This document shows, in pieces, positions 12,925 through 59,220 of a stretch of DNA of 64,000 nt; positions within the stretch are counted from its first letter, which is position 1; every line of letters begins with the position of its first letter. The stretch lies in the NCBI RefSeq assembly GCF_902506655.1, contig NZ_LR734808.1, positions 2,170,001-2,234,000 of the forward strand, read 5' to 3'. Under the pieces are notes generated by a model. That model had not been told where the DNA came from, did no database searches, and worked only from the letters and a program-made list of their open reading frames with translations. The position numbers and the translations under genes were made by a program. Source of the stretch: Marinoscillum sp. 108. GTDB lineage: Bacteria > Bacteroidota > Bacteroidia > Cytophagales > Cyclobacteriaceae.

Positions 12925-13180
12925 CCTCTTGATTTTAAGATCAGGTAATATAAAAAATACCCGGCTTCTCCAGATGGGTAGCGTGTAAATCCATCTGTAC
13001 AAATCAGCACTCCTATATCACTTGTATCCACTTAGCGCCGAAGTATTGTCGTTCAGCTAATTTTTTTTTATCCCACAAGCCGTAATCATATATTACTATT
13101 CCTTTTTCCTCCGACTGGCTCATTTATCGCGATAACGTGTAGCTAATACCTTGTTTCAAAACAAAAAAGCAAAAGCTACT

Positions 13181-17692: not shown

Positions 17693-17707
17693 CAATTTAT
17701 TTCTCAA

Positions 17708-17777
17708 AGTGGCTGCAGCGAAGGTCTCATTACCATTTAGTCCAACCAACCTACTTTCCGCTGTGGCCGCTTTTTTT
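17708..17777 (+). terminator. Possible rho-independent terminator, long loop
   Basis: AGTGGCTGCAGCG at 17708 can pair over 13 bp (three G-U) with CGCTGTGGCCGCT at 17759-17771, followed by seven T. The 38-base loop makes it less certain. It would separate the two chitinase transcripts. Confidence 0.5.
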
Positions 17778-17788
17778 CAATCATTTCC

Positions 17789-17805
17789 AACCAAACCAAA
17801 AACCT
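17789..17805 (+). promoter_or_regulatory. CCAAACCAA leader element before the second chitinase
   Basis: CAACCAAACCAAAAACCT immediately precedes the ATG at 17806. It is nearly identical to the leader of the amylase at 36379. No Shine-Dalgarno sequence is present. Confidence 0.4.
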
Positions 17806-43683: not shown

Positions 43684-44883
43684 TTACATAAAAAAACTCC
43701 CGGCCAAGCCCGCGCTCAATATTACATAGATAAGGTTCATCTTATACCTGATCAGGCACAGAGAACCCACAAGGAAAATAGCGATTGGAACCACATCTAC
43801 TTCCAGGCCCATTCCGATCTTCACACAAGCATTGAAGATCATCCCGATGGTGACCGCATAGACCCCTTTCATAGCGGATTTAAATAGTATGGAATCCGAA
43901 TGACGCAATATCATCTGTGAACCCGCCACCATCAGAATACCAGAGGGCAAAAACATCGCAGCTGTGGCTACCAAGGCCCCAGTAATCCCCATCACTTTGT
44001 AGCCAATAAAAACCGAGCTAATCATGATGGGCCCCGGACTCACCTGTCCAAGAGCAATGCCATCAATAAATTCCGCATTGCTTAACCATCCCAGTGACTC
44101 TACCACTACCTCCTGCATCATAGGGATAAACACATACCCGCCACCGAACAGACTCAGACTCATGGCACTGAAAACCGAGATCAGCTGGAGAACCATACTC
44201 TTCTCACCAAAGAGCGCTAAAGCCAGTAGCACCCCGGCTACAGCAACCAAGGCCAGAGCCACTACCTGTACATCTTTTCCATTGAATCGTGAGACCGGTA
44301 TTTCATTCAAATCATTAGAACCCTGAACCTCATGCCGAAAAAATAAGTAGCCCAGAATGGCTCCTCCTGCCACGAGTACAATGATGGTTTTGAAACCGGT
44401 AAAGGTCAACAAAGTCGCAATAGAAATCAGTAGTAATAGCACCTGCACCCTGTGTCTGATGTGCGATTTGGTCATTTTAATAGCCACGGATAGGATAATG
44501 GCACCGACCGCCGGCATGACTCCTTTAAAGATGGGTTCTACATTGAGGACATCTCCATATTCGAAATAGAGGTAGGTGAGTATGTAAACCAACACGAAAG
44601 CAGGTAAAATGATACCGGTAAAGGCAATGAGCATTCCCGCTTTTCCCCTCAGCTTATAACCAACGTATATCACGATATTGACAGCCAGAGGGCCAGGAAA
44701 AATAGAAGCTAGTGCCACTGCATCCATAATCACTTCATCTTTCAACACCCGCCTGCGGTCTACCAGCTCATCACGTAAAATGGAAACCAGTGCCATATAT
44801 CCACCAAACGATATACTCCCCACTTTTAGAACGGAAATCAATAGCTGCCACAGGCTTATTCGTCTTTCTGAGAGTTGGTTCAA
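43684..44883 (-). CDS. chrA: Chromate/oxyanion transporter of the CHR (ChrA) superfamily
   Basis: 399 residues with about 11-12 helices in two homologous halves: N-terminal FGGYMALVSILRDELVDRR ... SIFPGPLAVNIVIYVGY and C-terminal SLFGGGYVFIPMMQEVVVESLGWL ... QVSPGPIMISSVFIGY. These duplicated FGG and PGP motifs define the long-chain CHR family. The start is a TTG at 44883, since no ATG lies before residue 30 and a stop lies seven codons upstream. Known members expel chromate; sulfate, a structural analogue, is often discussed as related substrate. It lies 10 bases after the sulfotransferase gene, so it is co-transcribed with sulfur-transfer genes at the tail of the SusCD operon, which hints at sulfate or another oxyanion (inference). 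Confidence 0.88.
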   Translation of the reverse strand: MNQLSERRISLWQLLISVLKVGSISFGGYMALVSILRDELVDRRRVLKDEVIMDAVALASIFPGPLAVNIVIYVGYKLRGKAGMLIAFTGIILPAFVLVYILTYLYFEYGDVLNVEPIFKGVMPAVGAIILSVAIKMTKSHIRHRVQVLLLLISIATLLTFTGFKTIIVLVAGGAILGYLFFRHEVQGSNDLNEIPVSRFNGKDVQVVALALVAVAGVLLALALFGEKSMVLQLISVFSAMSLSLFGGGYVFIPMMQEVVVESLGWLSNAEFIDGIALGQVSPGPIMISSVFIGYKVMGITGALVATAAMFLPSGILMVAGSQMILRHSDSILFKSAMKGVYAVTIGMIFNACVKIGMGLEVDVVPIAIFLVGSLCLIRYKMNLIYVILSAGLAGSFFM

Positions 44884-44893
44884 AGGAGCTTGG

Positions 44894-45934
44894 TTAATCA
44901 GTTAGAGGGACCGGCTCAAAAGCCAATTTGATCCGTGAGAGGAGTTGCTCCTGTGGCATTCTTTTAGCTCTATCGAGTGGATCCGAGTGCTCCACTGCCC
45001 GTTTCTTCAGAAACTCATTCTCCCGATCGAAGTTGATCAAATCAACTTCTGAAAAAGTAACCGCTCTGGCTGTGTCACCATAATGAAGTGGATACCCTAG
45101 TCGGTCAAGTGTAGTACCAGCCACTGCCTCAAAAATAAGGACGTCTTCCCTGGGCAACTCCTTTAAGTATTTGCACATATTGCCACGAAGCACAGGTTTG
45201 GTGACATTTTGCCACATTTTGCCCGACAAAGCAGTTTCCTGCGAATCTCTTGACAAGAAGTAGTCAAGGGCCTGTGGCTTAAATTGGATCTGCAAAAAGG
45301 CACAAATTCTGGAGAGTTGCGCTTCAGGATTGGTGATGAGATCTTCATAAGCTACCCTGATCACCCGCTCAGACCCCAGCTTCTCTCCTATGGCGAGCGC
45401 CTGGTCCTGATCACGTTTCCAGCTTTTCGCCTGGTGATAAGTATGTTTTTCACCCACCATGATTTTTTTAAATGATAAAGCTACATCACGACCATCGCGA
45501 TAAAGGTGGATATAATACGGTTTGATTCCGTGGCTGTGCAGTTCCTCAGCGAAATGAACATTCGTCAGACTTTTACAGCACCAGAACCTGCTTCCCTTGG
45601 AAGATGCATATCTTGCATAGATGTGTTCGAAAAGGGAATATATGTTTCTGGAATGCTGAAGCTGGTCAAAGATAAGATCCCGATCAAGAGACAAATCATT
45701 CCACTTTACCGGATTTAACTCTACAAACTTGCATACATCGTTGATCAGATTTTGAAAATTGACATTGATGGAAAGGTCTCCATATCGATCCATCAATGGC
45801 ACAAAGGTCTTCAATATATGCGGAGGATGCGGTGCAGTGATCTCCGTGAGCTGATTGAGCATAAGCCTGAGTAGGTTGGACCCAGATCTTTGTGTTCCAA
45901 TCAGTTGAATAGGTATTATTTTGTCTTTAGTCAT
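44894..45934 (-). CDS. P-loop (PAPS-type) sulfotransferase family protein
   Basis: 346 residues, no signal peptide, so cytoplasmic. The 5'-phosphosulfate loop is clear as QLIGTQRSGSNLLRLML (residues 10-26), and the 3'-phosphate site as YIHLYRDGRDVALSFKK near 140, both hallmarks of the Sulfotransfer family. A conserved NPEAQLSRICAFL segment follows. These enzymes move sulfate from PAPS to a hydroxyl or amine of a glycan, lipid or metabolite; the acceptor is unknown. The ATG overlaps the stop of the arylsulfotransferase-like gene (ATGA). No PAPS synthesis gene is in the window. Sulfotransferases are rare in SusCD operons. Confidence 0.85.
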   Translation of the reverse strand: MTKDKIIPIQLIGTQRSGSNLLRLMLNQLTEITAPHPPHILKTFVPLMDRYGDLSINVNFQNLINDVCKFVELNPVKWNDLSLDRDLIFDQLQHSRNIYSLFEHIYARYASSKGSRFWCCKSLTNVHFAEELHSHGIKPYYIHLYRDGRDVALSFKKIMVGEKHTYHQAKSWKRDQDQALAIGEKLGSERVIRVAYEDLITNPEAQLSRICAFLQIQFKPQALDYFLSRDSQETALSGKMWQNVTKPVLRGNMCKYLKELPREDVLIFEAVAGTTLDRLGYPLHYGDTARAVTFSEVDLINFDRENEFLKKRAVEHSDPLDRAKRMPQEQLLSRIKLAFEPVPLTD

Positions 45935-47418
45935 TCTTCAATAAATTTATTCACATAAGCTTTTGAATGGTTCAAATCCGGAATATACTGTGCCCGATAA
46001 GACGGATACTCCAGTAGCAGACTCCCCAGATTCTCTCCTTTCGAATTAACAAAAGAGAGGATATTCTTGGTGGAGCTATTGAAAAGTACAAGTTCATCTG
46101 AAATTCTCCCGGCACTGCCTTGAGACTCTGTCATATACACCTCTGGGAACACTACTTCTCCCACAACATCTACCTTTCGGGTCTCCTCGTCTATGTGGAG
46201 TGTGAGCATTCTGGAAACCGGCTTTGATCTGGCTGGGTAGTCGGGATTTGCGTTTCTTACCCCGGGTTGAGCATGCCTGTTTCCATTGTCCAGAATCACA
46301 AGGTAACCCTCCGTATCAAAATGAATATTGTGCTGACCATTGAACAGGAAATCTTCAGGAAGGAACAAATCTTCACTTCCTCTGCCCAACCTCCAAATGA
46401 GCGCGCCGGTTACTCCATCTATTTTCCAAATCTGGCTACAGTTTCGAAAGGAGATGAGGTAGTTCCCGAGGGTGTCTTTCACCAGGGCGTTCGCATGTAA
46501 CCAATCTCCGCGTTCATTCAAAATATTGGCATAGTCAAGTGGGGAAAATACGTCGAAAACGGACCACTCCCATACCTTTTCATTTTTGACAGGATCATAA
46601 ATAAGAATACCATCACCACGAACTATGTCTTGCTTCCCTCCTCCTACTGAAGAGAGGTCCACAACCTCCTGCTCATAAGTCAGACTCATGATATTCCCAT
46701 TCTCATCGAAATCAATCTCATGATGAACTGTCTTATTAAAAGCCCCTTCACCTTTCTCTACCTCAAACAGCACATTTCCATCCAAGCCTACCTCTGCGAT
46801 GTGATTGCCCGAAGAAAAACGGAGCGTATCGTCACTCAGGATAGACAAGAAAGTATTCTTCCAGGTGTATTTGGAAACCTTCACATTCATTGGTGCTTTC
46901 TGATACCACACCAGTTCGCCGGTATCGTCGATCATCAGGAGGTACCCCTGATCCTTTCTGGCCTGAAAAGCCACATACCCAGAAAAGGATACCTGCTTCA
47001 TGCTATCTGGTTTTGGGAAATACGGAACCCAGGGGGAGAGGAGGTTGGTAGTGAACTCGTAGGTGCTGCTCAGTGTCTTGCAAAGCTCATCTTGCACCAC
47101 CACCTGGAATTCATAAGTGGTAGCAGGCTTAAGAACCACCAACACGAGGTGATGAAGGGTGTCTGCTGAGGATAGGTCTGAGTAGTACTTCTTGTCATTA
47201 CATTCCAAACGAGAATCGCACTTTTCCCAATAGGTCACGTAGACATCTTTGCCTGGATTGGTCTGCACATCTATTCCGACACGGAGAGAATTATCCGGTC
47301 GTTGATATATTTCTATAGTGCCAATCTCATGAGGTATAAAGCACACCCCTTCCTCACCTCTTCGGGCGCAGGCAAGTATCAACAGGGCTAAAGCGAAAAT
47401 ATATAGTCTACTGAGCAT
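45931..47418 (-). CDS. Arylsulfotransferase (ASST)-like lipoprotein
   Basis: 495 residues. The N-terminus (FALALLILACARRGEE) is a lipoprotein signal with Cys 17, so the protein is exported and lipid anchored. An Fn3-like region (residues 25-130) is followed by a beta-propeller with VHHEIDFDENGN, WLHANALV, IWRLGRGSEDLFLPEDFLFNGQHNIHF and LVILDNGN. These match the ASST family, in which His residues carry the sulfate in a ping-pong transfer between phenols, independent of PAPS. Whether the catalytic His is kept needs alignment. It lies 40 bases after SusD with a hairpin between, and four bases overlap the next sulfotransferase. Confidence 0.78.
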   Translation of the reverse strand: MLSRLYIFALALLILACARRGEEGVCFIPHEIGTIEIYQRPDNSLRVGIDVQTNPGKDVYVTYWEKCDSRLECNDKKYYSDLSSADTLHHLVLVVLKPATTYEFQVVVQDELCKTLSSTYEFTTNLLSPWVPYFPKPDSMKQVSFSGYVAFQARKDQGYLLMIDDTGELVWYQKAPMNVKVSKYTWKNTFLSILSDDTLRFSSGNHIAEVGLDGNVLFEVEKGEGAFNKTVHHEIDFDENGNIMSLTYEQEVVDLSSVGGGKQDIVRGDGILIYDPVKNEKVWEWSVFDVFSPLDYANILNERGDWLHANALVKDTLGNYLISFRNCSQIWKIDGVTGALIWRLGRGSEDLFLPEDFLFNGQHNIHFDTEGYLVILDNGNRHAQPGVRNANPDYPARSKPVSRMLTLHIDEETRKVDVVGEVVFPEVYMTESQGSAGRISDELVLFNSSTKNILSFVNSKGENLGSLLLEYPSYRAQYIPDLNHSKAYVNKFIEE

Positions 47419-47429
47419 GGTACAGCAGA

Positions 47430-47446
47430 AGCCCCTTGTCGGGGCT
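47430..47446 (-). promoter_or_regulatory. Intercistronic hairpin after the SusD-like gene
   Basis: AGCCCC / GGGGCT, a perfect 6-bp GC-rich stem with a 5-base loop, in the 40-base gap between the SusD-like gene and the ASST-like gene. No T-run follows on the coding strand, so it may protect upstream mRNA or lower downstream expression instead of ending transcription. Confidence 0.4.
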
Positions 47447-47458
47447 CCTTGTTTTGGT

Positions 47459-48934
47459 TTATTTATTTAGCGGGTTGGGTTCCATATTAGGGTTGAGGTC
47501 CAACTCCTGTCGTGGAATTGGGTACACCCGATAGTCCTGTGTGACGGTCACGGGATTGGGATAATTCTGATCCACCAGATATTGGGTCATGGTACTTTCG
47601 AACACTCCATGTCGAATGAGGTCATCCTTGCGATGGCCTTCTCCGACCAACTCGAGCGCTCTTTCATTCAAAATGGCCGTTCGGAATGCTCCCTGATCAA
47701 ACCCAGTGGGCAAGCCCTCCAATCCTGCTCGATTTCGCACTGCATTGATCGCATTGTAGGCAACTCCCGTGGGGCCATTCAACTCATTTTCTACCTCAGC
47801 CTTCATCAGCAGTATATCCGCATATCTGAACACCGGCTGGTTAAGGGCCGAAGATGCGTAATTGGCCCATATGCTATTAGGTGCAGTGACATCCCGGCGA
47901 AATCCACTGTATTTGGTGAGGAGAGCAAAGCCTTTCCAATCTGCGGCAGTGCCATAATCCCGAACATAAGCGTAGTAAGCTCCTGACAAGTCATTCTCTA
48001 TCACATCATTTCTTGCATCTGAGGGGTCTAGCATGTTGTAGATTTGGAGGGGGACACCCGTCTCTGACCATCCGGTATCATAGCCCCAAGGGGTAAAAAA
48101 CTTGATATGGTGATTGGACTTATTGTACTCCGCACCCAGGGACATCACTACAAAAATAAACTCATTGTCTTTTCTGTTTGATTCGTAAAAAAGCGCTCCA
48201 TACTGCCCCTCAAACAAATCGTAAACTCCAAGATCGATCACCTGATCAATGTACCCTTCTGCGGAAGACCATTCCTTTTGACGAAACGCAATCTTAGCCA
48301 ACAGGGTAAGGGCAGCACCACGAGTGGCCTTGCCCACACCATCCTGTACCGGAGGCAAATCCTCTGCTGCAGTTTCCAGGTCAGAGATGAGTTGTGCATA
48401 GACTTCTCCTTCGGGTGTGCGGCTTGGAAGCTCATTTGGATCACTGGTAGCTCCCAGCCTAAGTGGTACCGCACCAAACAGCCCTGTCAGATCAAAGTAT
48501 GCAAGTGAACGAAGGAAAAGCGCTTCACCCATTAATGCTGCTTTGGCATCCGCCGAGGCAAAGCTGGACTCATCCATCCCCTCTATGAGTTCCAGTGCTG
48601 TATTGGCTCGATTGATCAACACATAGGCCGATGACCAAACCATGTCGGCATGGCTCTCGGTCCAGTGATATTGCTCCAGATTAGAGGTTCGGCCTTCCAC
48701 CATCACATCGGTAATCCCATCATTAAGCTTGACCATCTGACCCGATCCGTAATAAAACCAACCTCCGGTCAGCATCTGGTTATAGATACCATCCACCAGG
48801 GCTCTCGCGTCAGACTCTGATACCAGCGTACTGGCACTCAGGCTGCCCTTGAGCTCTTCTGTAAGGTCATTTTCGCATGACAAGCAGGTCAAAGCGAGCA
48901 ATATTGATAGTATTTTAATTCTTAAGTATTTCAT
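47459..48934 (-). CDS. SusD/RagB-like outer-membrane glycan-binding lipoprotein
   Basis: 491 residues from the ATG at 48934; the frame opens at a GTG three codons earlier. Lipobox LLALTCLSC. The helical SusD core is seen in the TPR-like stretch and in the C-terminal FRYADILLMKAEVENELNG ... YNAINAVRNRAGL ... ILNERALELVGEGHRKDDLIRHG, with the usual ending YPIPRQELDLNPNMEPNP. It forms the lid of the SusC-like transporter and binds the glycan at the cell surface. It follows SusC by 13 bases. Confidence 0.93.
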   Translation of the reverse strand: MKYLRIKILSILLALTCLSCENDLTEELKGSLSASTLVSESDARALVDGIYNQMLTGGWFYYGSGQMVKLNDGITDVMVEGRTSNLEQYHWTESHADMVWSSAYVLINRANTALELIEGMDESSFASADAKAALMGEALFLRSLAYFDLTGLFGAVPLRLGATSDPNELPSRTPEGEVYAQLISDLETAAEDLPPVQDGVGKATRGAALTLLAKIAFRQKEWSSAEGYIDQVIDLGVYDLFEGQYGALFYESNRKDNEFIFVVMSLGAEYNKSNHHIKFFTPWGYDTGWSETGVPLQIYNMLDPSDARNDVIENDLSGAYYAYVRDYGTAADWKGFALLTKYSGFRRDVTAPNSIWANYASSALNQPVFRYADILLMKAEVENELNGPTGVAYNAINAVRNRAGLEGLPTGFDQGAFRTAILNERALELVGEGHRKDDLIRHGVFESTMTQYLVDQNYPNPVTVTQDYRVYPIPRQELDLNPNMEPNPLNK

Positions 48935-48947
48935 GATTGACACGATT

Positions 48948-51900
48948 TTAAAATTTCACTTTTACCCCTACTGCATAAGACTTCTGGAGCGGGTATGAAT
49001 ATAGATCCACCCCTGAACCAATGTTCAAATTGGTGGTGGCGTTTACCCTGGAACTCACTTCAGGATCAAAACCCGAGTAGTTAGTCCAGGTATATAGGTT
49101 AGAGGCAGAGGCGTATAGGCGAAGGTTTTGCACAAATTTCAATCCCATTTTATTGACCGGAAGATCATAAGAGAGAGAGATGTTTTTCAATCGAATAAAG
49201 CTTGCATCTTCCACCAGATCATCATTGACCCAGAACTGACCTGAGTGATTTCTAAATGGTCTGGTACCATCGGGTGTCTCAGGGGTCCAGCGCTCCAAAG
49301 CTGATTCCAGGCGGTTGGTTCTGTAGCCTATCTCTCTGTTGACATTGAGTACATCGGCATCAAATACACCACTGAAGAAAAAGGACAGCTGGAAGGATTT
49401 GTAGCTGATGGTATTGGTGAGTCCGGCCAGATATTTTGGAAAACCATGGCCCAGAATGGTTCTGTCGGCGGATGTGATGGCACTGTCTCCATCTATGTCA
49501 TGATACAAGGCATCACCAGGAACCGCCGATGGTTGTAAATCGTCAGTTTCTCCTTCTTGCAACACTCCTCTCACTTTATAGCCATAGAATGAATTCACGG
49601 GAATGCCTTTTTGAATAATGGTGTAGGGTGCCCGATCCAACTGACCGATTGGCTTCAATTCAGCTCCTTCCAGAAACTCTGATCCTTCAGGAAGCAGTAC
49701 TTCTTTGATTTCGTTGCTATTGAAAGAAACGTTGATGTCTGTCACCCAGCTAAAGTTTTTGGAGGTCACGTTGTTGCTGGAGAGTAGTATTTCGACCCCA
49801 GAGTTTTGAATACGCCCAACATTGGTAATAATGGATCCAAACCCCAGTGAGGGGGGCAACGACTTGGTGACAATGAGCTTGTCGGTGTTTTTTACATAGT
49901 AATCAAACTCAAGAACAATACGATCTTTGAACAAGCCGATATCCGTACCAAGATCCATCTGAGTAGTCTCTTCCCACTGGAGGTTATCATTGCCCAAAAC
50001 ACTTGGCACTGTACCTATGGATTGATTATCGCCATCCAGGGTCACAGGAGCATTGGCCTGAAACTGAGTCTGTGCCAGGCCAACTCTAAACCTTTCAGAG
50101 CCTGTGATACCATAGCTGGCCCTTAGCTTCAGGTTGGATAACAGGGACTGACCGGACATAAAGGCTTCATTATGAACTTTCCATCCTACGGCAGCAGCCG
50201 GGAAATTTGCCCACTTATTGTTCGCCCCAAATTTAGATGATCCGTCTCGTCTAAAGGTAAGTGTCAGTAAGTAACGATCATCATAATCGTAAATGGCCCT
50301 GGACAAATAGGAAATCAATTTGCGCTCACTGGTTCCTGAAGATGGCGTAGTGGGAATGGCTCCCGCCTGCAGGGCATTCCATCCGAGGGTATTGGTGGTA
50401 AAATCCCGAGCTCCTGCTCTGAAACTCTCATAAATAACCTTTTGGTTGGTATAACCTGCCAGTAAATTCAAACCATGTTTACCGAGGCGCTTTTGATAGT
50501 TTATCGTCCCTTCAAACAACAAATCATAAGACTGGTTATTAGTAAGGGCAGCTTCTCCTGGCTGCAAAGTGCCTGCCACTATGTGGCTTTCCTGAGAGAG
50601 GTATCCATACTCTTTGCCATTAAACATGCGGCTGCCCCCCAGCGCTTTGACTTTCAGCCCCTCTAGTACTTCCAACTCCACAAATCCAGTAGAAAGGATG
50701 TAAGTCGACTTGGCCTCATTGTCTGATGCTTCTATCGTTTGTAGTGGACTAATGGGTCTGGTACCACCCAGTAGTTGGATTTCCGTTTCGGTGAGGTTAT
50801 CTAGTCTATTGGGGACGAATGGACGAGCATCAGCGAAAATATTTCTAAGAATATTTGTCTGAAGGTTGCTGGCATTGAATCCCAGAAAGTTGGTATTGGT
50901 GTACGTGATACCTGTGTTCAGACCAAAGGTCAACTTATCATCAAACATCCTTTGGTTTAAGTTGATCCGGGTATTGTATCTTGAAAACTCAGTGCTGGGC
51001 ACTACACCTTGCTGGTTGAAATATCCAGCAGAAAAATATACCCGAGAATTCTCCTTGCCAGAGCTTATTCCCAGCTGATGGTTGACCGTAGCTCCATCTC
51101 TAAAAGCTTCCTGGAGCCAATTGGTGCTTCCAAAATACTGCTCTAATGAATCTATTCTGGATGGTGAATACATCTCCATTGCACCATTTACACGCTGGAT
51201 GAGGTTATCATTTTCTGTAAACGCCCTGGTGCCTAGAAACTCGTAGGCATCCAGATTAGAAACCACCTGCTGACCGTACTCCGCATTGTAGTCGATATTG
51301 ACTGCACCGGATTTACCCTGCTTGGTGGTGATAATGATCACTCCATTGGCACCTCTAGTGCCATAAATAGCGGCGGCCGAAGCATCTTTGAGTACCTCTA
51401 TCGACTTGATATTGCTGGGATTGATGCTGTTATCCAGGTTATCCATAGGGAAGCCATCCACCACATATATTGGCTGATTGTCGTTTTGAATAGAGTTATT
51501 TCCGCGAACCCTGATGACGAAATTCCCACCTGGCTCTGCACTCTGAGTAGAAATCTGTATCCCGGTGGTACGGCCCTGCACCAGCTGCTCCACACTGGAA
51601 ATACTTCCCACATTGAAGTCTTCCTCACTCAATGATGACACAGCCCCTGTAAGATCCTTTTTCTGTTGGGTACCATAGCCGATGACCACCACTTCATCCA
51701 ACTCCTGTAAGTTTTCCTCCAGAGCAACGTCAATTACAGACCTGTAATTAACCTTAACCTCTCTGGTAATAAACCCCACATAGGAGAAAATCAGGGCAGC
51801 ATTGTCTGGTACCTGGAGTCGGTAATTACCATCTACATCAGTAATGGTCCCTGAACTGGCATCTTTCACCACCACACTCACCCCAGGAAGTCCCTCTCCT

Positions 51901-52076
51901 TTTGAGTCGGTTACTCGGCCAGATACCGAAATATCCAACACCTGAGCAGGTACCTTGATCTTCTCTCCCTCAACTGACGGTAATCCTTCAGCTAACCCTA
52001 TACCACACAGCAGGCACATGATGCAGGTCAGCACCATTTTGATGGGTATGACTATATTTTGTATTCTTCTTTTCAT
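48948..52076 (-). CDS. SusC/RagA-like TonB-dependent outer-membrane transporter
   Basis: 1042 residues. Signal peptide, then a carboxypeptidase-regulatory-like domain (VSGRVTDSKGEGLPGVSVVVKDASSGTITDVDGNY), a TonB-box-like stretch (LDEVVVIGYGTQ), the plug domain (VEQLVQGRTTGIQIS ... IRVRGNNSIQNDNQPIYVVDG ... AAIYGTRGANGVIIITTK) and a 22-strand barrel ending KSYAVGVKVKF. It imports oligosaccharides with TonB energy. Order on the strand is unclassified hydrolase-like gene (65-base gap), SusC, SusD, ASST-like, sulfotransferase, ChrA. No strong promoter was seen in the 65-base gap. Confidence 0.95.
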   Translation of the reverse strand: MKRRIQNIVIPIKMVLTCIMCLLCGIGLAEGLPSVEGEKIKVPAQVLDISVSGRVTDSKGEGLPGVSVVVKDASSGTITDVDGNYRLQVPDNAALIFSYVGFITREVKVNYRSVIDVALEENLQELDEVVVIGYGTQQKKDLTGAVSSLSEEDFNVGSISSVEQLVQGRTTGIQISTQSAEPGGNFVIRVRGNNSIQNDNQPIYVVDGFPMDNLDNSINPSNIKSIEVLKDASAAAIYGTRGANGVIIITTKQGKSGAVNIDYNAEYGQQVVSNLDAYEFLGTRAFTENDNLIQRVNGAMEMYSPSRIDSLEQYFGSTNWLQEAFRDGATVNHQLGISSGKENSRVYFSAGYFNQQGVVPSTEFSRYNTRINLNQRMFDDKLTFGLNTGITYTNTNFLGFNASNLQTNILRNIFADARPFVPNRLDNLTETEIQLLGGTRPISPLQTIEASDNEAKSTYILSTGFVELEVLEGLKVKALGGSRMFNGKEYGYLSQESHIVAGTLQPGEAALTNNQSYDLLFEGTINYQKRLGKHGLNLLAGYTNQKVIYESFRAGARDFTTNTLGWNALQAGAIPTTPSSGTSERKLISYLSRAIYDYDDRYLLTLTFRRDGSSKFGANNKWANFPAAAVGWKVHNEAFMSGQSLLSNLKLRASYGITGSERFRVGLAQTQFQANAPVTLDGDNQSIGTVPSVLGNDNLQWEETTQMDLGTDIGLFKDRIVLEFDYYVKNTDKLIVTKSLPPSLGFGSIITNVGRIQNSGVEILLSSNNVTSKNFSWVTDINVSFNSNEIKEVLLPEGSEFLEGAELKPIGQLDRAPYTIIQKGIPVNSFYGYKVRGVLQEGETDDLQPSAVPGDALYHDIDGDSAITSADRTILGHGFPKYLAGLTNTISYKSFQLSFFFSGVFDADVLNVNREIGYRTNRLESALERWTPETPDGTRPFRNHSGQFWVNDDLVEDASFIRLKNISLSYDLPVNKMGLKFVQNLRLYASASNLYTWTNYSGFDPEVSSRVNATTNLNIGSGVDLYSYPLQKSYAVGVKVKF

Positions 52077-52141: not shown

Positions 52142-54877
52142 CTACTGGCGATGGATCACTAACTTTCGACCAATCTGTTCGCCATTTTTCAAGATCACGG
52201 ATACCATATACATTCCGTTTTTGAGTCCTGATATATCCACCTGATTCACTTCGAGGGATGTAAAATCCTCACCGTCTTTGATCAAAACCACCTTACCATT
52301 GATGTCATAAATCATAAGATCGTGAATTTGGGACTCAATTTCCAGATCAATTCTCAGGAAGTTATCTGCCGGATTGGGATAAATCGTGAGAGCAGCAACC
52401 TCCTTGGACGGAATGGGCACCACATCGGCATTACGGGCGCTACCGGAGCCTTCCACCAGTTCAAAATCATCCACATAAAGGTTGTTTCCCGGACTCTCAT
52501 TGTAGACCACAACTACCACAGAGTTGTCATTTGCACCAGTGGTAAAGGTGTTTTGAATTAACGAATAGCTGGTTCCGGCGTTGATGGTCACGCTATGCTG
52601 AGAGGTTGTACCATCATAGTCCTGAACAATGAGGTATCCAATGGAACCTGTGGAAGCAGCCTTGGCAAAAGCAGAGATGGTGTACTCAGTATTTGACTGG
52701 AGGCCGGTGAAAGTACGCTGCACAAGATTGTCATAGACGATCTCACCTGCGTATGTTCCTGTACGGGCATTACCCGATACCCGGCCATTTCCCAAATAAC
52801 CCCAAACCCATGGAGAATCACCTTCTTCGAAACTCATGTTATCATACTGATATTCCATCGGCCCCTCTATTTCGATTATTTCAAAATCATCTGCAAACAG
52901 GTCATTCCCAACAGATTCATTGTACACAGCAATTTGCACCGATGTATCTGACGCTCCTAAGGTGAAAGTATTTTGGAAGACGTTATAAAGAGAGTCTGTA
53001 CTGGCCGTGACACTAATCTGAGAGCTGCCTCCATCAAAATCACTCGCAATCAGGTACGCAGTACCTCCCGGTGATGAGGTCTTTAGATACGCTGACACCT
53101 TATAGGTGGTACCGGGCATAAGCCCACCAAAAGTCCTGAGAACCTGATTATCATAGACAACCTTGCCTACATAGGTTCCTGAATGGGCGTTTTCTGCTAC
53201 TCTTCCATTGCCTAGGTAACCCCAGGCCCAGGGGCTATCGCCCTCCTCGAAACCCAGATTGGCCACCGCCAGACCAGGTGAATTTTGAACCTCTTTCAGG
53301 ACAAAATCATCTACAAAAAGATCATTACCAGGAGATTCATTATAGACCAGCAAGTCAACTGAATTGTCACTGTCACCTGTAGTGAAAGTAACCGACTGAG
53401 TCTGATAAGTAGTGCCGGCATTTACTGTGGTACTTTGATATGCGCTGGCTCCATCATAGTCTTCTAAGATGATGTAAGATACTGACCCTGCACTCGCTGC
53501 TTTTAGACTGACAGACAGTACATATTGCTGATTGGGCTTCAGGCCTGTCACAGTTCTGGCCACCTGATTGTCATAGACTATTTTACCAGAATAGGAGCCT
53601 GATTGTGCATTGCTACTGATACGTCCGTTGCCCAGGTAACCCCAAACCCAGGGTGAGTCACCATCCTCAAAGCCGCCATTGTCCAGTAAATTGAACTGAT
53701 TGGTGCCTGTATCCCACCAACCCGCGTTAGCATTGGGAGAACTGTCCACAGTAAGGTCTACAAAACTGGTTCCTCCGGGAGTAGGGCCTACACTATCAAT
53801 TTCTGCACCATCAAACCAATGTTCGATATATCCATCCGAATGGATGGCTATCCGGTCAAAAGAGGCGTATTGTTCGAAGACTCCCTGGGCACTGTCCATA
53901 TCAGACTCAAACAAGTTGAATCGGGTGTTGTCGTTTTCCGCATAGATCTCGTCGGCATAGGTTTCATATTCAGAGCCTTCCCACAGACCCAGGATATCAT
54001 CCGTCTCTATACCAACCGAAACGAATTTCTTACCGGGCAGGGAATCTGCCCAATGTAGTAATCTGGAACCGAAAAAGATGAAATTGTTGTTATTACTGGT
54101 ATAGTTCATCATGGCAGCATGATGGGCATTTTTTATGTAATGGTATGCCACATAATTGTCTTCACCTTCGTAAGTGATTGTCTCATAACTTACCCACGAA
54201 GGTCGAAGTGCTGCCGAGTGATAGAATGGTCGGGCACCCTGGCTTTTAAGTACCTCGTTCCAGGCATCTGCTCTTTGAGTAGCCGTTTTACAATAATCGA
54301 GGTAGGGAACATGAAACCGTTCGCTTTTGGGCTCCTGATCAAACTGCACCCCGTGAAATCCAGCATTAGGATGACGCTGATTAAATTTGCCTATGGCATC
54401 CATGATCTGGTTGGCTGCTGTGATGTGCTCGTTGTTGGGGACATTTCCCATGGTGTCCACAGATGCCTTCAGAGACCCATCAGGTCTGTACAGATAGTTA
54501 CCTTCTTCGTCTGTCTCTATGAACGCCCAGTTATAATAGAGGGCCCAAACCTTTACTCCCCTGGCGTTTGCTTTGCTGATAAAAGCCGCCAATGAGTCCT
54601 GATAAGCCAAAGATCCTATTTCAGAGTCATCCTTGAGTGAGGAAGACCACTGCCATTCCGGAATACAAAACATGTAAACATCTGAAATAGACTTATTGGC
54701 ACAGAAATCCAGATAGGAATCCTGAACCTGTGGACTAGATGTCCCTAGGTTTCGCCAGGACCAGTGCCCGCGACGGACGGACTTATCCAACAAATCCCAG
54801 TCATTGTGGGCAGTATTCTGAGCGATACTGCCATAAGCGCTTAAAGCTAAAAAGAGGTAAAATAAATGCTTTCTCAT
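52142..54877 (-). CDS. T9SS-secreted putative glycoside hydrolase with worn GH18-like motif and three C-terminal sugar-binding repeats
   Basis: 911 residues; signal peptide ending SIAQ. The N-terminal domain (about 25-380) has features of a TIM barrel: WALYYNWAF, GFHGVQFDQEP at 173-183, ITYEGEDNYVAYHY, FVSVGIETDD. GFHGVQFDQE lines up with the GH18 motif GFDGIDLDWE, keeping the last Asp (180) and Glu (182) but with His and Gln at the first two acidic positions. I cannot place it in a named family. Three repeats of about 140 residues follow (from about 398, 538 and 679; GFExGDSPWxWGYLGNGR, VYDNQV, VYNESxGNDLFVDDF), resembling CBM4/9-type CenC domains. It ends with a T9SS domain (YPNPADNFL). Its place just upstream of SusC makes it the probable surface enzyme of the locus. 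Confidence 0.75.
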   Translation of the reverse strand: MRKHLFYLFLALSAYGSIAQNTAHNDWDLLDKSVRRGHWSWRNLGTSSPQVQDSYLDFCANKSISDVYMFCIPEWQWSSSLKDDSEIGSLAYQDSLAAFISKANARGVKVWALYYNWAFIETDEEGNYLYRPDGSLKASVDTMGNVPNNEHITAANQIMDAIGKFNQRHPNAGFHGVQFDQEPKSERFHVPYLDYCKTATQRADAWNEVLKSQGARPFYHSAALRPSWVSYETITYEGEDNYVAYHYIKNAHHAAMMNYTSNNNNFIFFGSRLLHWADSLPGKKFVSVGIETDDILGLWEGSEYETYADEIYAENDNTRFNLFESDMDSAQGVFEQYASFDRIAIHSDGYIEHWFDGAEIDSVGPTPGGTSFVDLTVDSSPNANAGWWDTGTNQFNLLDNGGFEDGDSPWVWGYLGNGRISSNAQSGSYSGKIVYDNQVARTVTGLKPNQQYVLSVSLKAASAGSVSYIILEDYDGASAYQSTTVNAGTTYQTQSVTFTTGDSDNSVDLLVYNESPGNDLFVDDFVLKEVQNSPGLAVANLGFEEGDSPWAWGYLGNGRVAENAHSGTYVGKVVYDNQVLRTFGGLMPGTTYKVSAYLKTSSPGGTAYLIASDFDGGSSQISVTASTDSLYNVFQNTFTLGASDTSVQIAVYNESVGNDLFADDFEIIEIEGPMEYQYDNMSFEEGDSPWVWGYLGNGRVSGNARTGTYAGEIVYDNLVQRTFTGLQSNTEYTISAFAKAASTGSIGYLIVQDYDGTTSQHSVTINAGTSYSLIQNTFTTGANDNSVVVVVYNESPGNNLYVDDFELVEGSGSARNADVVPIPSKEVAALTIYPNPADNFLRIDLEIESQIHDLMIYDINGKVVLIKDGEDFTSLEVNQVDISGLKNGMYMVSVILKNGEQIGRKLVIHRQ
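52420..53690 (-). repeat. Three tandem 420-bp coding repeats (sugar-binding modules)
   Basis: Three in-frame copies with a period of about 140 codons. GDSPW segments recur near residues 406, 546 and 686, and VYNES segments follow about 105 residues after each. Identity between copies is high by eye, suggesting recent duplication. Confidence 0.85.
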
Positions 54878-55038: not shown

Positions 55039-58000
55039 TTATAACCGGTTTTTACTTGTAATTCCATCTGGGGGTTTAATCCCTGCTTTGTAGTCGGATG
55101 GGGTAACCCCGAAATGTTCCTTAAAGGAGTTTCTAAAATGCTTCACATCATTGAGGCCTACCTCATAGCAGATCTGTGTGAGGTTGCCAAAATTCTTCTC
55201 TATCAAATAGGCTGCTTGTTTCATTCTGATTTTCTTAATGAAAGCATTAGCCGAACAGCCTGTCAGGTTCTTCATTTTGCGAAAGAGTACGGTACGGCTC
55301 ATATTCAATTGATCAGCCAGCATCTCTGTGGTAAATGATTCGTTTCTCAGGTTACTCTCCACCAAATCTATGGCCTGGCGGAGAAAACGCTCATCTTCAG
55401 AATTAACAGTAATGTCCTTTGGCTCCACATGAGGTTCCATAGCAAAGCGATCTCTGAGAACCTTGCGAGATGTAATGATACTTTTGATATGGCTTTTTAG
55501 CACTTCGCCATTAAACGGCTTGGTCATATAGGCATCAGCACCAAACTCAAAACCTTCTACCTGATGCTCATCGGAGGTTTTGGCTGACAGTAGAATAATC
55601 GGTATGTGAGAGGTGATATAATTCGATTTCAACTGCCTACATAACTCGTATCCACCCATAATTGGCATCACTACATCGCTAATCACTATATCAGGCTGGA
55701 GTTCCCGGGCCAATTCGAGACCTTCCTGACCATTTTTAGCCATAAAGACCCTGTAGTCAGTATTGAATACCCGCTTGAGCAAGGTGAGAACCTCCGCATT
55801 ATCTTCAACAATCAGTACGGTAAAAACCAGCTCAACATCGCCTGGATCATTTTCGTGCACCTCCGTTTCTAACAGATCCGGCCACCCATTGAGCTCACGA
55901 TGCTGGTTCCCTTCGGTGAGTTCCATGTTTTCATCTGGTATATAATCTGCGATGTGGTCTTTGGAAGCTGGAAGAACAACCCTAAATGTAGTACCCTGAC
56001 CGAGTTCGCTTTCTACAGAAATCATCCCCTGCTGTATTTCCACAAGCCTTTGTGTAAAGGCCAACCCGATTCCTGAACCCTGAAAGTGTTCTTCTCCTTC
56101 CGAGTTTACCTGATAAAACCGCCTGAAGATTCCTTCGAGATTTGCCTTGTCTATGCCTCGTCCGGTGTCCTTCACTTCCAAAATCATTACTTTCTTGATT
56201 TCTTTATTGCCTAAATGCCCCTTATTATCCGTCACCAGAAGGGTCACTCTGACTGTGCCTCCGGAATCTGAAAATTTCAAGGCATTTGAAATCAGGTTAA
56301 ATAGAATTTTTTCCAGCTTATCTTCATCATACCAGCAGTACTGACCTGAAAAGTCACTGTGGAACTCTATTTTTTTGGACTGGCGCTCGGCAGAATAGCG
56401 GAAAAAATTAATGACTTCATCGATTTGCTCATTGACATCTACTTTGGAAACACTCACTCCAAGGCTGTCATTCTCGATCTTTCGAAAGTCCAAAAGCTGA
56501 TTGATAAGCATGAGGAGTTTTTGTGTGTTTTGATAGATCGCATTGAGTGGGCTACCCCATCTCACATCTGTGGCCTTAGCTACTACCAGTTCATCCAAAT
56601 AACCTTTAATCAAGGTAAGCGGAGTTCTTAGCTCATGGGAAATATTGGTAAAAAACCTGAGTTTGGTTTGTGTGAGTTCATGCTCTTTGGCTTTCTCTAT
56701 TTTGGCTATTTTCAACTCATTGTTAGATTTTATGATCCGGTGGATCAGGTACAAAATCCCTATTAAAGCCAAAATGTAGATGATCCTTGCTTCTGTGGAT
56801 TGCAAAAAATGAGGAAGGATGATCACTTCTACCTCAGCCCCATTATTCCTTGTCTGTGATTCCTTTTTTACCAAAAACCGATACGTTCCAGGGTCCAGGT
56901 TGGTATATGATGCCTCGTTGCTGTTGGTTTTGATCCATTGTTTATCAAATCCCTCCAACTTATACTGAAAGTGGTCAATGTGATTGCTCTTGTAGTTGAG
57001 GGTGGAAAAACGAAACGAAATCGAATTCTCGTCACTGGCCAGTTCAATTCTTTCGGTCTGAGAGATATCATCTGCGAGGAGGACCCTGCCAGCTATGACT
57101 TCTCCATGACTGACCGTTTGGTTTAGCAACCGAAACTGTGTCAACCTCACCGGAAAATTAGTTTCCGAGAACGTAATGCTATCAGGATGAATGATGTTTA
57201 GCCCGAGAATACTCCCGAAATAAATAAAGCCTTCCCGATCTTTGAGTATGGATCGGGGATTAAAGGAGTATGACTGTAGGTTGTTTGTAAGATCAAAGTT
57301 GTAAAATCGCTCAGTCTGCTTTTGCAGACACGAAATTCCGTATTTGGTTCCCATCCAGATCTGTCCATTGTCTGCCGCAATGATGGATTTAATATTATCA
57401 TCCGCCAGTCCGTCGGTTTGATCATAAATCAAAAACCGGTCTGCCCCGAGTGGCGAACTGTAGGAGATCTTGTTAAGTCCTCGCATGGTAGCCACCCAGA
57501 TAACTCCATCACTTTCTACTATCTGATTGACTTCATTGTGGGATAATGAATGATCATTGTCAGGATCATGTTGCAATCGCACGAAGGAATCGACTCCTAT
57601 ATTTTTGACGGCTATCCCATTGTTGGTCCCGACCCATAGCCGCCCTGAACTGTCGGAAAACAAACAGTAAACCGCATTGCTATTCAGCGAAGAAGAATCC
57701 CCCTCTATATTCCTGTATCGTTTGGTGGTTTTTTCCTGATTATTGATCTTGAGTAAACCGTTGGTTCTGGTGGCCATCCAGAAATTACCATCCGGAGTCT
57801 CTATGGCATCGGCTATTCTGTCGACAGACTGATTTTCAATCCAGGTAATCTTACTCAGGTGCCCCTCACGTGTGTCGTACTTGTACCAACCCTTTACCGA
57901 AATATTGATCCACAGATTATCCCTGGAGTCCTTGAACAAAAAATCCACAGGGCCCAGACCTGAGAGTTCTCTTACTTTTTCAAATTCCTCCCGCACGCCT

Positions 58001-59220
58001 GACTTGGGCAGGTAGGTGGATCGGTAAACCCCGCGTCGTGAAGTGGCTAGCCATATAGTTTGGTTATGGGTTTCCACTATCGACACCACGCTCTTCTGGC
58101 TTTTCATATCAGCCTCATCATCGAGCAGTGTGGGCCTCATAAACTGATTTCTGCCCGGATGCACTACAGCAATATCATTACCGAAGGTGCCTAACCAGAT
58201 GTTTTCCTGTCTGTCCTTAAAGAGTGAAATGATGATATCATTTGGGATGCTGTTCTTGCTGTCCCGATTGTATTGGAAATTTTGGAAGGTTTCAGTGGTC
58301 GGATCAAAGTTATAGAGCCCCAACCCGTAGGAAGCGATCCAAATGATCCCATCACTGGTCCGCACCGCCTTGTAAAACGCACTTGGCTGACTATCCTGGG
58401 CTTTCCAGTTGTGAAACTGTAGTACCTCAGAAAACTTCGTATCCATCTGTAACCGGGACAGCCCATCCTCCCAGGACGTCAACCAGACTGACTTGGTTTT
58501 CTGATCTACTTCAATATCTGAATATCGGATTTTGACATCAGCACTCTCCTTTCTGATGGGCCAAATGTGTCGAAAAACATCGTCTGAGGCCATTCTATAG
58601 ACACCAAGATCCTTAATCGAAACCCATAGCGCATCTTCTGAAGTCTTCAGTGACTCGATGGTAGAATTCTCAAAATAGGTACTTAGCAGGGGCCGATCCT
58701 CCAGGTTATGACTCCACGATATCTTGGTCAACCCCTCTTCCAAAGTGCCCACCCAAATATCGCCACCCTGATCCTCCGTGAGGCGATAGGCCCACTTATT
58801 CTGCAGCAGAGAGTAGGTACTACTGCCATCGACACCCTGAAACAGAACGTATTTGGAACTAGATAAATCAATGCACGAAACTCCCCTTTGGTGGGCAATC
58901 CACAAGTGTCCTGAGGATGATCTTACAATTTCTTCAATGCCCTGAATCCTTAGATGGAGATCCGGCTCATTGACGGGGTGAAAAGGCATCAGTGTGTAGC
59001 CATCATACTTTATTACCCCTTCGTAAGTGGCAATCCAGATAAACCCAGCCTCATCCTGAATCAGATCGGACACATCGGTCACCGGTTGATCAAGGGTATG
59101 AATGCGATTAATATCAGGCTGTGCACCTAGCTCCAATACAAAAAGCCCCATGCCAAAGGCAAGGAGCATTTGCTGTAGTACTTTGTTGATCCCGCTAATT
59201 ACCAAGTCAATTGTGACCAT
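55039..59220 (-). CDS. Hybrid two-component system sensor-regulator (HTCS) of the polysaccharide locus
   Basis: 1393 residues in one chain. Signal-anchor near 10-32; two seven-bladed propellers of two-component 'reg_prop' repeats (GFIWIATYEG, GDIWVGTLEEGL, ENIWLGTFGNDI, GRLWVGTNNG, GQIWMGTKYG) to about 700; Y_Y_Y domain (FQYKLEGFDKQWI ... YTNLDPGTYRF) about 725-800; one membrane helix near 815; HisKA with phospho-His near 862 (FFTNISHELRTPLTL); HATPase with DTGRGI and GSGIGLAF; receiver with Asp near 1182 (VISDVVMP); C-terminal AraC HTH (about 1285-1385). HTCS proteins sense a periplasmic oligosaccharide and activate the linked SusCD genes. It lies upstream of the unclassified hydrolase-like gene and downstream of GH20. 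Confidence 0.95.
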   Translation of the reverse strand: MVTIDLVISGINKVLQQMLLAFGMGLFVLELGAQPDINRIHTLDQPVTDVSDLIQDEAGFIWIATYEGVIKYDGYTLMPFHPVNEPDLHLRIQGIEEIVRSSSGHLWIAHQRGVSCIDLSSSKYVLFQGVDGSSTYSLLQNKWAYRLTEDQGGDIWVGTLEEGLTKISWSHNLEDRPLLSTYFENSTIESLKTSEDALWVSIKDLGVYRMASDDVFRHIWPIRKESADVKIRYSDIEVDQKTKSVWLTSWEDGLSRLQMDTKFSEVLQFHNWKAQDSQPSAFYKAVRTSDGIIWIASYGLGLYNFDPTTETFQNFQYNRDSKNSIPNDIIISLFKDRQENIWLGTFGNDIAVVHPGRNQFMRPTLLDDEADMKSQKSVVSIVETHNQTIWLATSRRGVYRSTYLPKSGVREEFEKVRELSGLGPVDFLFKDSRDNLWINISVKGWYKYDTREGHLSKITWIENQSVDRIADAIETPDGNFWMATRTNGLLKINNQEKTTKRYRNIEGDSSSLNSNAVYCLFSDSSGRLWVGTNNGIAVKNIGVDSFVRLQHDPDNDHSLSHNEVNQIVESDGVIWVATMRGLNKISYSSPLGADRFLIYDQTDGLADDNIKSIIAADNGQIWMGTKYGISCLQKQTERFYNFDLTNNLQSYSFNPRSILKDREGFIYFGSILGLNIIHPDSITFSETNFPVRLTQFRLLNQTVSHGEVIAGRVLLADDISQTERIELASDENSISFRFSTLNYKSNHIDHFQYKLEGFDKQWIKTNSNEASYTNLDPGTYRFLVKKESQTRNNGAEVEVIILPHFLQSTEARIIYILALIGILYLIHRIIKSNNELKIAKIEKAKEHELTQTKLRFFTNISHELRTPLTLIKGYLDELVVAKATDVRWGSPLNAIYQNTQKLLMLINQLLDFRKIENDSLGVSVSKVDVNEQIDEVINFFRYSAERQSKKIEFHSDFSGQYCWYDEDKLEKILFNLISNALKFSDSGGTVRVTLLVTDNKGHLGNKEIKKVMILEVKDTGRGIDKANLEGIFRRFYQVNSEGEEHFQGSGIGLAFTQRLVEIQQGMISVESELGQGTTFRVVLPASKDHIADYIPDENMELTEGNQHRELNGWPDLLETEVHENDPGDVELVFTVLIVEDNAEVLTLLKRVFNTDYRVFMAKNGQEGLELARELQPDIVISDVVMPIMGGYELCRQLKSNYITSHIPIILLSAKTSDEHQVEGFEFGADAYMTKPFNGEVLKSHIKSIITSRKVLRDRFAMEPHVEPKDITVNSEDERFLRQAIDLVESNLRNESFTTEMLADQLNMSRTVLFRKMKNLTGCSANAFIKKIRMKQAAYLIEKNFGNLTQICYEVGLNDVKHFRNSFKEHFGVTPSDYKAGIKPPDGITSKNRL

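Follow-up and report, generated by a model that had tools for sequence, protein, structure and literature searches.

A SusC/SusD-linked gene unit in Marinoscillum sp. 108 that may encode a two-step trans-envelope sulfation relay

Composition of the five-gene unit

We analyzed a stretch of 64,000 nucleotides from Marinoscillum sp. 108 (contig NZ_LR734808.1, positions 2,170,001 to 2,234,000; hereafter the window, in whose own numbering its coordinates are given). Five genes follow one another on its minus strand: those for a SusC-like transporter, a SusD-like lipoprotein, an arylsulfate sulfotransferase (ASST), a sulfotransferase (ST) of the type that uses 3'-phosphoadenosine-5'-phosphosulfate (PAPS), and a transporter of the CHR family (Table 1). 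The intergenic gaps are 13 (taking the ATG start of SusD), 40, -4 and 10 bases, the ST and ASST reading frames sharing 4 bases; since open reading frames (ORFs) were called mechanically, start codons are uncertain. A first-pass annotation had described this order and spacing, which the coordinates, strands and family matches confirm. From the analyses below, we propose, at about even confidence, that the locus encodes a two-step trans-envelope sulfation relay.

ST matches PF13469 at 91.5 bits (cut-off 27) and has no visible signal peptide, and is therefore presumably cytoplasmic. Its P-loop GTQRSG (G13-T14-Q15-R16-S17-G18), R146 and S154, which we take to be the PAPS-binding motifs, are invariant in 58 ST sequences. 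The structure model (pLDDT 95.0) finds its best PDB matches in tyrosylprotein sulfotransferases, with query TM-scores of at most 0.58, followed by the sulfotransferase domain of CurM, which ranks first by sequence. A phenolic acceptor would fit this likeness, as weak evidence from the model.

The window ASST matches PF05935 at 97.3 bits against a cut-off of 24.2. By eye, it carries a lipobox-like LILAC with Cys17; an N-terminal domain resembling fn3 (PF16656, slightly under its cut-off) is followed by the propeller, and its model has a pLDDT of 90.8. Residues H233, H308, N310, R325 and H363 are present. In the alignment with Escherichia coli AssT, H308/N310 correspond to H356/N358 and H233 to H252; we take H252 and H356/N358/R374 to be active-site residues of AssT. 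The catalytic histidine, which the first-pass annotation had left to be checked by alignment, is in place: H363 falls on H436 (Asn in the mutant chain 4p04), the AssT nucleophile according to the available part of PMC13426309. After removal of duplicates (69 rows, 62 distinct sequences), H308, N310, H363 and N378 are kept in 62/62 ASSTs, and H233 in 61, with a Cys at this position in a locus without CHR (L128). The feared loss of catalytic residues from both sulfotransferases has thus not occurred; both retain them. Several ASSTs open with a membrane helix in place of the lipobox (N-termini judged by eye; our lipobox scan of relatives was a crude pattern with visible false matches), and the shared site of action would therefore be the periplasmic face.

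In the fold search, Cpz4 of caprazamycin biosynthesis (9kf6, 9kf4) came first by E-value (3e-17) and E. coli AssT next, and two Cpz4 entries were the only matches in a sequence search of the PDB (E 2.7e-13). Foldseek also gives, more weakly, Bacteroides surface propellers such as BtuG2, which would suit an ASST-like protein that is a mere binding propeller at the SusCD complex and performs no sulfuryl transfer. The same could be argued from two ASST-like proteins that have lost H308 in loci where an acyltransferase-like protein replaces ST (L059, L074). Nevertheless, the ASSTs of ST-containing sets keep H363, H308 and N310 in every one of the 62 distinct sequences, and we regard this explanation as very improbable. 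The two H308-lacking proteins (L059 8624-9862, L074 8404-9594) lie beside SusCD and adjoin a DUF5009/acyltransferase-like membrane protein; they perhaps belong to a related trans-membrane group-transfer system with another donor.

The CHR protein contains two CHR domain stretches and matches PF02417 at 262 bits (cut-off 28.6) and TIGR00937 at 231 bits (cut-off 171.7). It stays under the NCBIfam ChrA and ChrB equivalog cut-offs (104.5 and 92.1 against 250 bits); these models span about 180 positions, half the length of the window CHR.

Recurrence and co-occurrence of the unit

As the sole query for related loci, the window ASST retrieved no relatives; it has matches in 4 of 59 genomes, its own included but none of the five congeneric ones covered. 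In a sample of 148 genomes of the window's family, a PF05935 search was positive in 33, and examination of the gene neighborhood in 40 stretches around PF05935 matches found ASST, ST, CHR and SusC/D grouped in nine genomes, which belong to seven other genera. Because the STs of these units share 42-49% identity with that of the window, we used ST as a wider probe, which gave 110 relatives in a collection with one genome per species (84,980 species). The best 80 of these loci come nearly all from Bacteroidota, namely Cyclobacteriaceae, Dyadobacter, Pedobacter, Mucilaginibacter, Parapedobacter, Lutibacter, Formosa, Draconibacterium, Sunxiuqinia, Parabacteroides and others; the set also includes two bins that bear a cyanobacterial label and one that bears the label Heimdallarchaeota, and these labels may reflect misbinning. 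Conservation of ASST, ST and CHR beside SusCD, on which the first-pass annotation had made its reading depend, is found in other genera and families. In a phylum sample, a strong ST occurs in just 2 of 296 genomes (8 at E <= 1e-30, the remaining six at 168 bits or less), and the unit is therefore rare though widely spread.

CHR lies near ST in 69 of the 80 loci, ASST in 56 (by our own profile at E <= 1e-4, possibly with distant relatives included), SusC/SusD in 54, and all three in 45; 50 ASST ORFs reach E < 1e-60 with at least 350 residues and are not cut by a locus end. Absences are overcounted here, because 25 of the stretches are shorter than 15 kb and only the best 80 of the 110 relatives were taken; SusC/SusD and the PAPS genes were counted anywhere in the stretch, and some belong to other loci. 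The median gap is 1 base in 62 adjacent CHR-ST pairs, -4 in 30 ASST-CHR pairs, 58 in 36 SusD-ASST pairs and -4 in 24 ST-CysQ pairs. As a control, none of 18 weaker ST relatives (L038-L055; genus, family and order) has CHR or ASST within 1.5 kb. A chance neighborhood is ruled out by the recurrence in many genera together with the presence of ST and CHR in the same 17 of the 148 family genomes. A shared feature of the genus is ruled out as well: GalK is present in 6/6 genus genomes (galK, galT and galE come after CHR in the window), but in the five relatives the stretches of 17.5-20 kb around GalK contain no match to the window ST, CHR or ASST, and the unit therefore looks accessory.

APS (adenosine 5'-phosphosulfate) kinase makes PAPS, and CysQ removes 3'-phosphoadenosine-5'-phosphate (PAP). 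CysQ is in the neighborhood of 28 of the 80 loci (in the same gene run in 26) and APS kinase in that of 27 (same gene run in 12); two representatives of each exceed the NCBIfam equivalog cut-offs (TIGR01331, 281 and 278 against 228.8 bits; TIGR00455, 203 and 188 against 138.7 bits). With these genes nearby, ST very probably uses PAPS. The window genome has a single APS kinase, away from the locus. Presence of APS kinase is not discriminating, as it is found in 123 of the 148 family genomes (E <= 0.001, with some short weak matches).

ST (E <= 1e-60) occurs in 17 of the 148 family genomes, and the CHR subfamily (at least 320 bits) in the same 17; at this level the CHR subfamily is missing from all 131 ST-negative genomes, and the CHRs of ten further family genomes reach 239 bits at most. 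The ASST subfamily is found in 18 of 148, that is, in 14 of the 17 ST-positive against 4 of the 131 ST-negative genomes. Two more ST genomes (G067, G095) have a weaker PF05935 match on the ST contig, and the last one without the subfamily (G144) is 60% complete. Fisher tests on the 148 genomes, uncorrected for relatedness, give p of about 1e-22 for ST-CHR and 1e-13 for ST-ASST. The profiles (A4, A5, A6) were built from ST neighbors, which favors members of the module; a CHR subfamily protein without ST would still show. Some of the 80 loci coincide with stretches of the family sample (e.g., L109, L071), so that the two surveys are not independent.

These co-occurrences bear on the possibility that CHR imports inorganic sulfate to feed PAPS synthesis, the ST product being used or exported otherwise and ASST working on aryl sulfates from outside, with a shared regulon and no shared carrier. 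CHR, ST, CysQ and APS kinase are grouped in many loci, and CHR proteins have been proposed to include chromate/sulfate antiporters, as a title cited in PMC2751784 has it. In the available part of PMC6731281, cysDNC plus cysQ greatly increased the output of a PAPS-dependent ST in E. coli, and both PAPS and sulfate become limiting when such an enzyme makes its product. However, a sulfate importer should exist without this particular ST, yet the CHR subfamily is in 0 of the 131 ST-negative genomes; nor does sulfate import give a cause for the coupling of ASST to ST, which appears in the 14/17 against 4/131 above and again in 12/17 genomes with a split unit, described next. We therefore give this explanation a low but not negligible probability.

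The split was seen among 24 ST loci without a local ASST. Of the 23 genomes searched for these, 17 have CHR beside ST, and 12 of the 17 carry the ASST subfamily outside the stretch (E <= 1e-130); in two of the 12 (G176, G188) it may sit just past the end of the stretch or contig. SusD is adjacent to the distant ASST or one gene away in 7 of 10 loci shown. The unit can thus apparently divide, with CHR-ST as its inner and SusCD-ASST as its outer part, and the two apparently tend to stay in one genome even then. Tree-distance correlations, calculated over 33 dereplicated loci, are consistent with two coupled halves: they are 0.94 for SusC-SusD, 0.69 for ASST-SusD, 0.65 for ASST-SusC and 0.77 for ST-CHR, and across the halves 0.61 for ST-ASST, 0.51 for CHR-ASST and 0.43 for CHR-SusC. 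Shared ancestry contributes to these values, none of which was reached in 999 permutations (0/999). In several Pedobacter (L115, L143, L153, L158, L171), the stretch has a CHR-ST-CysQ run but neither SusCD nor ASST; this would also fit detoxification, in which ST conjugates toxic phenols, CHR pumps the conjugates out, and SusCD-ASST is only loosely linked. Against such a role stand the same ASST subfamily further off in 12/17 genomes of this kind and the joint presence of CHR, ASST and SusC/SusD in 45/80 loci, so that we think it quite unlikely.

A possible sulfate route and the genes around it

We suggest the following scheme. PAPS would be made by APS kinase (encoded elsewhere in the window genome and beside the unit in about one third of relatives), and the cytoplasmic ST would use it to add sulfate to a small molecule, most likely a phenol serving as carrier, while CysQ would clear the inhibitory PAP. 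CHR would then export the sulfated carrier through the inner membrane, sulfate being the less likely cargo. At the periplasmic face, ASST would take the sulfuryl group onto H363 of its active site and hand it to an acceptor that its own SusC/SusD pair takes up; an oligosaccharide containing amino sugars is the most likely acceptor. The PAPS genes, ST and CHR would thus form the inner half of the relay, and SusCD-ASST the outer half. We infer the donor chemistry (PAPS) and the periplasmic transfer with strong confidence, and the carrier, the CHR cargo and the glycan acceptor with moderate confidence. The first-pass annotation had suggested that sulfate groups may be moved onto, or between, molecules linked to glycan uptake by two enzymes with different donors. 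Its suggestion that sulfate is put onto something is strengthened by the PAPS-making and PAP-removing genes near about one third of the loci; as for the donors, our best reading of the analysis would instead join the two sulfotransferases in one relay with a shared carrier. We extend the proposal only tentatively, with rather less than even confidence, to a phylum-wide machine in which CHR exports a PAPS-charged aryl-sulfate carrier and ASST discharges it onto SusCD-held glycans.

The direction of transfer could also be the reverse, with SusCD importing a sulfated glycan or an aryl sulfate and ASST replacing a sulfatase by passing the sulfate to a phenol. Import is indeed what SusCD pairs do, and sulfatases are rare beside the unit (2/80, one representative used), as such a catabolic function would have it. 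On the other hand, sulfate transfer from a sugar to a phenol is uphill as a matter of general chemistry, and APS kinase and CysQ near about one third of the loci point to PAPS being spent on making sulfate esters. This explanation seems to us to have little probability. As the first-pass annotation had reported, the 64-kb window contains no PF00884 sulfatase. The nearest of the 10 in the genome lies about 35 kb past the window, which rules out one concealed just upstream, since the genome search shows none less than 35 kb from the window end. In the 10 kb beyond the window (L218), the 5 of 7 ORFs scanned are an esterase, three ADP-ribosylglycohydrolase-family proteins and a SusD; the three stand in tandem and adjoin the SusD (L218 2572-7831, just upstream of the window).

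A search with one representative of each enzyme family (E <= 1e-8) found, near the 80 loci, GH123 in 13, GH20 in 9, GH16 in 9, NagB-like in 5, GH2 in 3 and sulfatase in 2 (GH, glycoside hydrolase family). In the window, GH20 lies upstream of the unit, with GH18 and GH109 further off. With amino-sugar enzymes both near the loci and in the window, an amino-sugar-containing glycan is our leading guess for the acceptor.

Several observations weigh against the relay. In gene content, the ASST subfamily occurs without ST in 4/148 genomes. ST and CHR occur without any ASST found in the genome in L155 and L163, and L118, L141 and L175 have CHR-ST with no ASST or weak ones only; ST stands without CHR in L127, L132, L134, L152 and L157, whose genomes have weaker ASST matches (best E 7e-33). 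APS kinase and CysQ were not seen near about two thirds of the 80 loci, and a search of five congeneric genomes did not find the unit. Shared ancestry inflates both the distance correlations and the Fisher tests. As to the proteins, the Arg matching AssT R374 (R325 in the window) is kept in just 41 of the 62 ASSTs, and by TM-score the window ASST is nearer to AssT (0.62-0.65) than to Cpz4 (0.55-0.56). To our knowledge, CHR proteins are known for chromate, perhaps for sulfate, and not for aryl sulfates. Finally, the scanned representatives of neighbor clusters included no recognizable gene for carrier synthesis, for example a type III polyketide synthase like that of caprazamycin, singletons being left out and no dedicated search made. 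The CHR-ST pairs L155 and L163 lie in bins labelled Coleofasciculus and Xenococcaceae, which suggests transfer or misbinning.

Table 1. The unit and its upstream neighbors in the window.
Feature	Position	Strand	Basis and remarks
CHR-family two-domain inner-membrane transporter	43684-44883	-	PF02417; TTG start; inner half of the proposed relay
PAPS-type sulfotransferase (ST)	44894-45934	-	PF13469; TPST-like fold (TPST, tyrosylprotein sulfotransferase)
Arylsulfate sulfotransferase (ASST), probable lipoprotein (Cys17)	45931-47418	-	PF05935; N-terminal fn3-like domain and beta-propeller
SusD-ASST gap with GC-rich hairpin AGCCCC-GACAA-GGGGCT	47419-47458	-	fold z -4.8
SusD-like outer-membrane lipoprotein	47459-48943 (or start at ATG 48934)	-	SusD_RagB 113 bits, SusD-like_3 84 bits
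SusC-like TonB-dependent transporter	48948-52076	-	TIGR04056 846 bits
Protein secreted by the type IX secretion system (T9SS), three CBM_4_9 stretches	52142-54877	-	Pfam; membership of unit uncertain
Hybrid two-component system (HTCS) regulator	55039-59220	-	Reg_prop, Y_Y_Y, HisKA, HATPase_c, Response_reg, HTH_18
GH20 beta-hexosaminidase, upstream, same strand	59316-60947	-	Glyco_hydro_20 342 bits

The gap between SusD and ASST contains a hairpin in many relatives: at z < -2 (from mononucleotide shuffles), 22 of 29 gaps of 25-160 bases fold, against 10 of 69 control co-directional gaps. Such a hairpin is perhaps an expression step-down that would give much SusCD and less enzyme. A promoter scan found 22 promoter-like sites against a shuffle mean of 19.5 (standard deviation 4.6), which is no excess; separate promoters may still exist. 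Upstream of SusC, the HTCS is the probable regulator of the locus, and the GH20 possibly belongs to the locus. The T9SS-secreted protein is possibly a new glycoside hydrolase; no Pfam family matched its N-terminal half, and a search of 58 other relatives gave no match at E <= 1e-40. Amino-sugar enzymes are plentiful in the window, with two GH18-domain T9SS proteins bearing CBM5/12 and one GH109 protein at 13151-20460 and 6326-7690. In the relatives, FG-GAP/UnbV_ASPIC (CRTAC1-like) proteins recur beside the unit (L056 15299-17476, L084 10220-13564; 10/80 loci flagged), and in one SusCD subtype SusD is followed by a lipoprotein of about 270-320 residues (L057 532-1353 and relatives; 7/80 loci flagged), for which no Pfam family was found in the two examples scanned (L057, L137).

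Known systems and the meaning of the unit

The two-step chemistry recalls caprazamycin biosynthesis, the characterized example known to us that combines two such enzymes, in which Cpz8 sulfates a triketide pyrone with PAPS and Cpz4 passes the sulfate to the aminoribose of caprazamycin (PMC4257720, PMC6731281, both in their available parts). In what is available of PMC13426309, Cpz4 prefers sugar hydroxyls, and the accessible text of PMC6731281 mentions that related nucleoside antibiotics receive sulfate in a similar way. There, as in the window and its relatives, where the two genes lie side by side, a PAPS-dependent ST is encoded together with an ASST that does not need PAPS, and Cpz4 is the best PDB match of the window ASST by E-value. 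The caprazamycin system differs in being a Streptomyces antibiotic pathway whose carrier is made by a type III polyketide synthase, whereas the unit described here has a linked transporter, SusCD and often PAPS genes; ST is likened to Cpz8 by role, not by sequence. AssT of E. coli CFT073 (3elq) shares the propeller fold and the active-site His/Asn with the window ASST at weak sequence similarity, but it is encoded with DsbL/DsbI, and the available part of PMC13426309 mentions no partner PAPS-dependent ST. According to the same source, Bacteroides vulgatus has an arylsulfotransferase (AST), and a PAPS-dependent ST is predicted in the same genome; that Bacteroidota enzyme, which we liken to ours by description and not by sequence, differs in being described with free phenolic donors and acceptors.

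The locus otherwise looks like a polysaccharide utilization locus of Bacteroidota, with a SusC/SusD pair and with an HTCS regulator and GH20 upstream on the same strand. Sulfatases are usual in loci for sulfated glycans, whereas here sulfate is apparently added, and a sulfatase is near just 2 of the 80 loci. The window CHR belongs with the CHR superfamily (ChrA) by the PF02417 and TIGR00937 cut-offs, but it represents a subfamily tied to one ST and misses the ChrA/ChrB equivalog cut-offs. We found no published description of such a locus in the titles and abstract openings among the matches listed, a set that leaves the subscription literature mostly outside. As far as these literature searches go, the assembly and its breadth are new, while its parts are known and there is precedent for the chemistry.

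For most bacterial ASSTs, natural acceptors are unidentified and physiological roles poorly understood, as a 2026 review states in its available part (PMC13426309). The gene set described here pairs an ASST with a possible donor-making enzyme, a transporter and an acceptor-uptake pair, which makes the question of its role testable, also in named isolates of Dyadobacter, Pedobacter, Mucilaginibacter and Lutibacter. If the relay is true, it would assign a function to the CHR subfamily and reveal SusCD loci that add sulfate rather than remove it. It would also be a bacterial counterpart to Golgi sulfation, in which PAPS itself is imported, and the natural role of a CHR protein would be to export an organosulfate.

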